A stretch of 64,000 nucleotides of DNA from Desulfobacula sp. (lineage in GTDB: Bacteria; Desulfobacterota; Desulfobacteria; Desulfobacterales; Desulfobacteraceae): the NCBI RefSeq assembly GCF_030145145.1, contig NZ_JAQYWD010000019.1, positions 1 through 64,000 on the forward strand, given 5' to 3'. This document shows, one piece after another, positions 19,113 through 21,140 of this stretch. The number at the start of each line of letters is the position of its first letter. The stretch's first letter is position 1. The notes below the pieces were generated by a model, which was given only the letters and a program-made list of their open reading frames with translations, made no database searches and had not been told where the DNA came from. Both the position numbers and the translations under genes were made by a program.

Positions 19113-19128
19113 TGGTACGACTATTGCT
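19113..19128 (+). promoter_or_regulatory. Sigma-54 (-24/-12) promoter of the multiheme cytochrome operon
   Basis: TGGTAC-N5-TTGCT matches the RpoN consensus TGGCAC-N5-TTGCA/T with a single C-to-T change. The invariant GG (19114-19115) and GC (19126-19127) are spaced correctly. Transcription would start near 19139, giving a leader of about 130 bases before the cytochrome ATG. Confidence 0.8.
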
Positions 19129-19269
19129 GATTGTATGGTTAAGCAGGTCTTTTTATTTTAATCTGCGGTTACGAATCATCATCAATGGAATGCGTGGCTG
19201 TGATAAAGAGCTGAAACGGATGATCTTCATGCAAAGAAAAATGGATTTACAACATTTTGGAGGGTTCTC

Positions 19270-20613
19270 ATGAGCGCCATTAAAATTAAAACGTGTTTGG
19301 GCGTAATTTTGGCTGGGGTTCTTTTTTTGCCGTATAACAGTCCCGGGGTCCACGCCTCAGACACACAAAATTTTTGTTTTACCTGCCATACAAATGCACG
19401 AAAGTTGATAAAAATCACACGGGAGATTTCCCGGATAAACAAAGGGAAACCCGGTGGTTCCATTGAAACATCCGGTGAGGGCTGAGGCGGCGAAGTGGAG
19501 CCGTTGGCTGCGCATGAAAAAATTTTTATTGATGGTGAGATTGCCGAGGATGAAAATCATGGTGAACTTGGTTGTGAGGAATGTCATGGCGGCGACCCGG
19601 GTGAACCGGATTGGCAAAAGGCCCATATTGGTGTGGTTAAAGATCCGTCTTATCCTGATCCTTCCAGTGCCTGCGGCGTATGTCATGAGGCGGTTGCAGA
19701 GAATTATACCACCAGCCTTCACGTGAGCCTGATGCCGATGAAAACCGCCATCGACATCCGGGCGGATTCGGAACCGGCCGTGCATCAAAAAGTAGATGCC
19801 GCCAGGGAAGGCCATTGCAATTCCTGCCACAGCAGTTGTGGGCAATGCCATATCAGTCGTCCGGAATCCGTGGGCGGGGGATTGCTGGAAGGGCACCTGT
19901 TTCAAAAAAGACCCCCCATGCAGCAGGTCTGTACGGCCTGTCACGGGAGTCGAATTGGAAAAGAGTATCTCGGTAAAAATAAGGGGCTCAAACCAGACAT
20001 CCATAAAGAAAAATACTTTAAATGTAACAAGTGCCATACCGGCGAAGAGATGCACGGGACCAGCAAGGTGCCTGGGAACCGCTATGAAGTGGAAAATGGA
20101 CCCAAGTGTCTGGATTGCCATACAAAGATCTATGATGCATCATCTGAAAATGTTAAAAATCACTGGATTCATAAAGACCAGGTGAGTTGTCAGGTCTGTC
20201 ATTCCCAGGCGTATAAAACCTGTTATGGCTGCCATTTTGGAAAAGATAAGCAGGGCTTTAAGTTCTATAAGACCACAAAATCCGACATGCAGTTTAAGAT
20301 CGGTCTGAACCCCTTGAAATCCAAAGAAAGGCCTGAAACCTTTGTGACGGTTCGGCACGTTCCAGTGGATATGGATTCTTTTAAATTTTATGTGGACAAT
20401 GGCCTTAAAAATTTTGATCGGCTCCCCACCTGGAAGTTTGCAACCCCGCACAATATCAGGCGGCAAACGCCTCAGAACAAAACCTGTAATGCCTGTCATG
20501 GAAATACAGCATTGTTTCTCCAGAACACGGATGTTGAAGAAAAATATGTAAGGGCCAACAATCCCGTCATCGTTCCAATGGATCGAATCCCCAGAACGAG
20601 ACGTAATAAATAG
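19270..20613 (+). CDS. Eleven-heme c-type cytochrome with one in-frame TGA (selenoprotein or interrupted gene)
   Basis: Read through codon 72 (TGA, 19483-19485) this is one 447-residue exported cytochrome. It has a Sec-type signal peptide (KIKTCLGVILAGVLFLP, cleavage near VHA-SD), then 11 CxxCH heme sites: CFTCH, CEECH, CGVCH, CNSCH, CGQCH, CTACH, CNKCH, CLDCH, CQVCH, CYGCH, CNACH. The first heme site is before the TGA and the other ten are after it, in the same frame with no shift. Without read-through, the downstream part would start at GTG 19495 and lack any export signal, so heme attachment could not occur. Either TGA encodes selenocysteine (context GEG-U-GGEVEPL) or the gene carries a recent nonsense mutation. 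The hairpin after the TGA (GGCGGC/GCCGTT, 8-base loop) is closer to the codon than a standard bacterial SECIS. A rhodanese gene follows; expression is probably sigma-54 dependent. Confidence 0.8.
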
Positions 20614-20705: not shown

Positions 20706-21140
20706 ATGAAAAAATGTAAGTTGTATGCAATTGTGATGGCCTTTTTCTCAGCCATGATTTTGACCGCTCAGGCCAGCATGGCCGCTGACTTGACATCCCA
20801 GGATATGGTGGCCGAGGCAAAAAAGACGATTTGTGAGGTATCTGTATCCGAAGCAAAGACGTTATTTGATCAGGGAGGCCCCCTGTTTGTAGACTGCCGG
20901 ACCAGCAAGGAATTTAAAATGGGTCATATTCCCGGGGCAATGAATATCCCAAGGGGATTGCTGGAGTTCAAGGTGAGTGGAAAAATTCCCGACAAAAACA
21001 CTGACATTGTTATGTACTGCAAGAAAGGGGGGAGGGGATGCCTGGCCACCTGCACCCTTTGCCGGATGGGGTATAAAAATGCAACCAACATGAACGGTGG
21101 TTGGATGGCCTGGGAAAAGGCCGGGTATCCCGTCGAATAA
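20706..21140 (+). CDS. Exported rhodanese-like sulfurtransferase
   Basis: A 144-residue protein with a signal peptide (residues 1-27, ending ASMAA) and a single rhodanese domain: LFVDCRTSKEFKMGHIPGAMNIP, then the active-site loop CKKGGRG with the nucleophilic Cys, and a C-terminal MNGGWMAWEKAGYP. It should act in the periplasm and transfer sulfane sulfur or bind an equivalent chalcogen species. AGGAGGAAATGGT before the ATG is a very strong ribosome site. Pairing with a multiheme cytochrome suggests a periplasmic sulfur- or selenium-linked electron transfer function, which is inference. Confidence 0.88.
   Translation: MKKCKLYAIVMAFFSAMILTAQASMAADLTSQDMVAEAKKTICEVSVSEAKTLFDQGGPLFVDCRTSKEFKMGHIPGAMNIPRGLLEFKVSGKIPDKNTDIVMYCKKGGRGCLATCTLCRMGYKNATNMNGGWMAWEKAGYPVE

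Follow-up and report, generated by a model that had tools for sequence, protein, structure and literature searches.

A widespread family of multiheme cytochromes, most likely selenium-containing, encoded beside a sulfur-transfer enzyme

Is a cytochrome gene that carries a stop codon in its frame dead, or is the stop translated, and as which amino acid? The question is raised by a stretch of 64,000 nucleotides of Desulfobacula sp. (the window; assembly GCF_030145145.1, contig NZ_JAQYWD010000019.1, positions 1 to 64,000), in which a forward-strand reading frame at 19270-20613 contains a single in-frame TGA and, if read through, yields a product of 447 residues. A first-pass annotation, made from the sequence of the window, had read this TGA as a possible selenocysteine (Sec) codon, had named a recent nonsense mutation as the alternative, and had proposed to align homologues at codon 72 and to search the genome for selA, selB, selC and selD. 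The gene is laid out as follows.

19270-20613, forward strand: undecaheme (11 CxxCH) c-type cytochrome gene, predicted to encode a secreted selenoprotein of 447 residues including Sec72
19259-19264, forward strand: probable ribosome binding site GGAGGG, from the sequence
19270-19359, forward strand: signal peptide, residues ~1-30, recognized in the sequence by eye
19375-19389, forward strand: heme site 1, CFTCH, residues 36-40, the sole heme site before Sec, from the sequence
19483-19485, forward strand: TGA codon 72, almost certainly read as selenocysteine, from the homologue comparison
19573-20499, forward strand: heme sites 2-11, residues 102-410, from the sequence

This architecture agrees with the earlier description, in which a signal peptide (again by eye) and heme site 1 precede the TGA, ten CxxCH sites follow it, and the part downstream of the TGA has no export signal of its own. 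The product belongs to the multiheme c-type cytochromes, as the Pfam models Cytochrome_C7, Cytochrom_c3_2 and Cytochrome_C554 all scored above their cut-offs in a profile scan, and its export signal is visible by eye. The only match to the cytochrome in its own genome at E <= 0.001 is the gene itself, and a plasmid search with the cytochrome gave no match.

Comparison of homologues indicates how the TGA is read. A scan of GTDB genome contigs recovered 20 relatives with 62-76% identity to the window protein, named Desulfobacula, Desulfobacteraceae, Desulfobacterales, Candidatus Desulfaltia or Deltaproteobacteria MAGs, and all 20 carry TGA at the aligned codon 72. Broader searches found matches in 78 of 389 genomes at the order level (E <= 1e-10), where most of the weakest rows, limited to about residues 145-326, probably represent other cytochromes, and in 48 of 395 genomes at the phylum level (E <= 1e-25). 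The first 67 distinct homologues aligned across the site comprise 59 with TGA and 8 with Cys, and no third residue; the phylum search added 26 homologues covering the site (25 TGA, 1 Tyr), and the remaining rows of the order and phylum searches that reach it added 24 more, all TGA. Of the 117 homologues covering the site, 108 therefore have TGA at codon 72, 8 have Cys and 1 has Tyr, a count that excludes rows ending short of residue 72 (e.g., G007, G389 and the fragments of G700). The 60 homologues compared directly share 31-77% identity with the window protein. Alignment A1 holds 20 of 21 sequences (L012 left out), and alignment A3 holds 61 of 67, with L012, L014, L015, L019, L061 and L065 dropped as truncated or near-duplicates. 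Two of the TGA homologues (L186 and L187) have a frameshift elsewhere in their assembly. The loop that surrounds Sec, between hemes 1 and 2, mostly reads G-x-G-Sec-[G/A]-[G/V].

An in-frame TGA kept among homologues and replaced by Cys in some is the pattern by which bacterial selenoproteins are recognized. Counted against Sec coding is the Tyr homologue (L129, G714:C82:1098-2369), the sole one of the 117 with neither Sec nor Cys, which reads GKGYMVRQ at the site, is fused to a rhodanese and sits on a very long branch (2.2). The competing explanation, a nonsense mutation or a sequencing error that leaves the gene dead or truncated, draws on the interruption of the frame and on the lack of an export signal downstream; since the TGA is kept at codon 72 in 108 of 117 homologues, nonsense mutation, pseudogene and sequencing error were all rejected. 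With the hairpin covariation and the fixed Pro-Leu codons described below also against it, we regard a dead gene as barely conceivable, and the recent nonsense mutation named in the first-pass annotation is excluded by the conservation of the TGA.

The genome is equipped to translate such a codon. Matches to selA (603 bits), selB (347), selD (366) and tRNA-Sec (76.5 bits, gathering score 47) are all above their curated cut-offs, so that the four genes selA, selB, selC and selD are present, as a selenoprotein-making cell needs. The selD gene of this genome (L039, G000:C74:71040-71963) contains one in-frame TGA, and SelD itself is therefore probably a selenoprotein. A selA match was found in 35 of 35 further family genomes, above the cut-off in 34, and eight of these genomes carry Cys forms of the cytochrome.

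The eight Cys homologues form one clade (support 100/100) with a Sec branch as sister (96/95), in a tree that is rooted at the midpoint only and in which the Cys clade and its sister are both long branches, possibly joined falsely according to a warning of the program. The tree holds 92 rows; the partial sequences L126 and L131, the repeats L113, L115 and L117, and the 24 latest genes were left out, and these 24 also lie outside the rhodanese, hairpin and codon counts. A loss of the Sec machinery as the cause of the Cys clade is unsupported, because all eight Cys genomes match selA, one of them with a fragment. Seven members of the clade (L073-L078 and L082) look like lipoproteins by eye, with a lipobox-like Cys near the N-terminus, unlike most Sec forms.

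Decoding of TGA as Sec would also leave a mark on the RNA. The bacterial SECIS element is a hairpin directly 3' of the TGA with a small loop containing G, and hairpins of this description follow codon 72 in the groups of the family designated A, B, B+ and C. In the window the element is the following.

19495-19513, forward strand: SECIS-like hairpin with 8-nt arms GUGGAGCC / GGCUGCGC, a GUU loop and one 1x1 mismatch, recognized by covariation

Its loop begins 17 nt past the TGA. For groups A, B, B+ and C every gene was included, giving 72 stem-loops of which 36 are distinct (alignment A4); all have 8-nt arms, with the loop GUU in 70 and GGU in 2, starting 17 nt after the TGA in 67/72 and 20 nt after it in 5/72. 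Within group A (21 sequences), 93.5% of 168 cells are paired and one base pair is altered on both sides in six sequences. Over the 36 distinct stem-loops 87.5% of 288 cells are paired, vs. 32-51% when the partner strand is slid as a control; 20 cells show double changes against a shuffle mean of 5.8, a value that none of 500 shuffles reached, and four stem pairs are altered in both arms, a number that 11 of the 500 shuffles reached (mean 2.0). Pairing is weak at the two outermost positions of the stem, where it fails in 16 and 11 of the 36 distinct sequences. The stem is mostly GGAGCC-GUU-GGCUCC in group A, encoding E-P-L-A, and mostly GGCUCC-GUU-GGAGCC in groups B and C, encoding A-P-L-E; the stem is thus kept while the protein letters swap. 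The loop codons are fixed as well: among 57 genes, those having the residue use CCG for Pro+7 (56/56) and TTG for Leu+8 (56/56), and these are the sole columns devoid of synonymous change among 49 conserved columns of four- or sixfold degeneracy.

The eight Cys genes have no such hairpin and no codon fixation, and their mean folding z against letter shuffles is +0.32 vs. -1.87 in group A. Group B stems reach a mean z of only -0.58, and the window's own stem, which contains a G-G mismatch, is no more stable than its shuffles at three lengths (z of -0.47, +0.05 and -0.33). Covariation was analyzed in groups A, B, B+ and C, and different hairpins occur in D, D+ and F. A different stem, GGCGGC/GCCGTT, had been pointed out beside the TGA in the first-pass annotation. 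This stem is possible and appears in the ViennaRNA fold of a 60-nt stretch, and 82.5% of its cells are paired across 21 relatives; as a SECIS it was discarded, because it does not covary and 12/21 relatives break one particular pair of its six. The expectation of a SECIS near the TGA held, for a bacterial-type hairpin with compensatory changes is there, at 19495-19513 and not at the stem that had been named. Together, the Sec/Cys split and the hairpin offer a clean natural example of RNA constraint within a coding region. The TGA/Cys pattern, the sel genes and the covarying hairpin all support the earlier suggestion of a selenoprotein, and codon 72 is almost certainly translated as selenocysteine, as far as sequence evidence can tell.

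What might Sec do in such a protein? The eleven heme sites are kept across the family, although in the Cys clade the last one resembles CxxxCH, and three members (L133, L138 and L170) have ten exact CxxCH. All 61 rows of alignment A3 share heme site 1 unchanged. Nine distal His (97, 119, 151, 209, 245, 262, 298, 301 and 394) are kept in at least 66 of 67 homologues, two short of the number of hemes, which would leave room for Sec as an axial heme ligand or a structural residue in an electron-transfer protein, with no catalytic part. In groups A-C, however, H182 (57/57) and H363 (53/57) raise the distal His to 11, and therefore all hemes could be bis-His in these groups and Sec would not be needed as a ligand; H82 is present in all of group A. 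Sec is seldom retained for structure, and the coupling to a rhodanese described below suggests chemistry, so that a purely structural or ligating Sec appears very unlikely.

The fold was approached through an AlphaFold model built from 61 sequences, which is confident overall (pLDDT 86.1, pTM 0.81), with low confidence for residues 21-31 in the signal peptide region. Foldseek of the model against the PDB returned no match below E 1, and a sequence search of the PDB none below E 0.03. Structural re-alignment with 252 chains retrieved five multiheme proteins at weak Z scores of 2.1-3.9: two HAO-type proteins, 4qo5, OmhA and MccA. With 3.9 as the best Z, the model is only suggestive of an HAO/MccA-like multiheme fold.

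The gene that follows the cytochrome, and the regulatory features upstream of it, bear on its function.

20706-21140, forward strand: single-domain rhodanese with a signal peptide (by eye) and active-site loop YCKKGGRG, PF00581 at 81 bits
17497-18837, reverse strand: divergent PAS / AAA / Fis sigma-54 activator, probable regulator, PF00158 at 222 bits
19113-19128, forward strand: sigma-54-type promoter TGGTACGACTATTGCT, GG-N10-GC, from the sequence pattern

The downstream product is a rhodanese by its PF00581 score, above the gathering score, and by its active-site Cys loop. With a profile grown from it, a rhodanese reading frame was found at 85 of 94 family loci, either fused to the cytochrome or beside it and then in most cases no more than about 0.5 kb away, a stronger link than the single adjacency that had drawn attention to it. 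By group, the counts are 28/30 in A, 15/20 in B, 13/15 in B+, 7/7 in C, 2/2 in C+, 2/2 in D (upstream), 5/5 in D+, 8/8 in the Cys clade and 5/5 in F. No rhodanese was found at nine loci (L019, L066, L071, L072, L099, L102, L103, L118 and L138), of which L103 and L118 offered fewer than 300 bases downstream and the other seven at least 1.5 kb. Groups C and C+ are true cytochrome-rhodanese fusions; in group C (L083-L089), a Sec cytochrome and a tandem rhodanese share one frame of 717-744 aa, and L083 is similar in its C-terminal part to 3-mercaptopyruvate sulfurtransferase (104 bits, under the 250-bit cut-off). In groups D+ and F the rhodanese frames abut or overlap the cytochrome, L134 being ambiguous. 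Many family rhodaneses have Cys-containing active-site loops such as YCKKGGRG, according to a rough pattern that missed some.

At 12 of the 20 loci L002-L021 a divergent gene encodes a relative of this activator (64-86% identity), and L016 has a 47% match on the same strand. The PAS domain of the window's activator contains, by eye, a C-x3-C motif (SMCETKC). A similar-looking regulator (by eye) lies beside another homologue, at 8682-10043 of L164. The sigma-54 promoter had been called conserved: the site exists at 19113-19128, but it is only partly conserved, being found in 5/29 group A loci by a strict pattern and in 8/29 by a scored one, the window's included. The strict pattern also occurs in 1/19 of group B, 1/13 of B+ and 2/7 of the Cys clade, and in none of C, C+, D, D+ and F.

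Sec coding, eleven hemes, export signals (by eye) and rhodanese coupling, all established at the level of sequence, are the properties that a function has to accommodate. We infer that the protein most likely carries out redox chemistry on sulfane sulfur in the periplasm, and that Sec is its reactive group. The secreted 11-heme Sec cytochrome would work in the periplasm with the neighboring, in one branch fused, rhodanese, whose active-site Cys would collect the sulfane sulfur of thiosulfate, polysulfide or a related compound and hand it to the selenolate of Sec72. The heme chain would then exchange electrons with the selenium-bound sulfur, which would most likely be reduced to sulfide with electrons from a periplasmic c3-type pool. 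The substrate, the Se-S intermediate and the catalytic role of Sec are proposals, and the direction of electron flow is suggested only by analogy. Speaking against a sulfur reductase are the nine of 94 loci at which no rhodanese was found and the weak fold comparison. Taken as a whole, a TGA translated as Sec together with a periplasmic sulfane-sulfur reductase and its rhodanese partner seems to us reasonably probable. A more ambitious proposal, which we put forward only tentatively, is that of a new enzyme class in which Sec wired to an 11-heme chain would take up the sulfane sulfur of rhodanese as Se-S, constituting a molybdenum-free, selenium-dependent periplasmic thiosulfate/polysulfide reductase found phylum-wide. 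No description of such a selenium-dependent sulfur reductase was found in the literature searched.

The same pair of proteins could operate in the oxidative direction, the cytochrome oxidizing sulfide or persulfide while the rhodanese removes the sulfur and the electrons leave to extracellular acceptors or syntrophic partners. Rhodaneses can run in either direction, and among the named carriers is Eth-SRB1, a syntrophic partner of ethane-oxidizing archaea. The nearest carriers, however, are by name (Desulfobacula, Desulfobacteraceae) sulfate reducers and thus makers of sulfide, and we consider oxidation distinctly unlikely.

Alternatively, the rhodanese may handle selenium and not sulfur, and the pair may reduce selenium or tellurium oxyanions. 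The model for such a role is the ext cluster of Geobacter, described in passages of PMC5877670, which combines the rhodanese ExtH with the Sec cytochrome ExtKL, a parallel to the pair in the window, and in which loss of ExtI lowers selenite and tellurite reduction; weak partial matches to the ExtM, ExtN and ExtO profiles point the same way. Against it, the ExtKL profile is unmatched and the architecture differs, no ext-like gene set was seen by eye in the gene surroundings of the window or in five larger neighborhoods, and selenite would be in short supply as the substrate of a family this widespread. Oxyanion reduction is therefore unlikely, if still to be reckoned with. Among the larger neighborhoods, L155 includes a candidate outer-membrane protein, and L158 and L164 include additional multiheme reading frames.

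For sulfane-sulfur reduction, which we prefer, a parallel comes from Dethiobacter alkaliphilus. Excerpts of PMC10376724 and PMC5609068 report that this organism has neither dsr nor psr nor sulfur-respiratory molybdopterin oxidoreductases, and describe a multiheme cytochrome adjoining a rhodanese that is up on thiosulfate; the likeness to the pair in the window is one of description only. The rhodanese tie makes a molybdenum-free periplasmic sulfur redox route testable. Annotation pipelines likely split or truncate such genes at the TGA, and a family found in 48 of 395 sampled phylum genomes may therefore be largely invisible. What sequence comparison has brought to light is most likely a widespread family of selenium-containing multiheme cytochromes with genes beside that of a sulfur-transfer enzyme.

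How does this family relate to known systems? In the Sud/Psr polysulfide respiration of Wolinella, a periplasmic rhodanese-type sulfur carrier feeds a reductase, much as is envisaged for the cytochrome-rhodanese pair; Psr differs in being a molybdenum enzyme, not a cytochrome, and in having no Sec. Four of the five structures with Z of at least 2 are HAO, MccA or OmhA proteins, the fifth (4qo5) being another multiheme protein. The window protein passed no NCBIfam cut-off, and neither did any of ten relatives scanned with the same models. Its top score was to ExtM (NF040943) of the ext cluster, a partial match along heme-rich stretches which, at 26.7 vs. 800 bits required, discards that identity.

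ExtKL of Geobacter (NF040886) is closer in kind, as a multiheme c-type cytochrome with one Sec from the same phylum, and its cluster also contains a rhodanese (ExtH; PMC5877670, as excerpted). It differs in having 5 hemes and its Sec at residues 275-309, in a PDGU motif (eight genes, L145-L152). The ExtKL profile matched neither the window protein (E up to 10), nor any of 61 family members (0.001), nor anything in the own genome (1e-10), and with heme count, Sec position and Sec context all different, the family was not assigned to ExtKL. In two genomes, a reading frame with 10 CxxCH (L143, L144) adjoins ExtKL-type genes. The octaheme tetrathionate reductase family (TIGR04315) is likewise one of multiheme cytochromes with a Sec form listed in the consulted part of PMC13188914, and is octaheme by name. 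It does not match the window protein (E up to 10); matches at E <= 0.001 were obtained for 17 of 61 family members (best 5e-8), and the relatives L142 and L083 score 20-22 bits, so that the 375-bit cut-off is not reached and this assignment was also set aside.

In Geobacter, the earliest candidate for a Sec cytochrome was put forward in 2007 (PMC1914089, in part). The cytochromes listed in the consulted portion of a 2026 review of selenoproteins in prokaryotes are ExtKL, the GSU2204 family and an octaheme Sec cytochrome from GenBank annotation, all different from the family described here (PMC13188914), and in a word search "cytochrome" is absent from the deep-Sep paper (PMC12013277). No description of the window cytochrome family was found in the literature searched, which covered few subscription papers, and we therefore call it a new selenoprotein family, as it appears from sequence to be, among the Sec multiheme cytochromes. 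To those already known, it adds one that escapes the ExtKL profile and is tied to a sulfurtransferase in 85 of 94 loci.
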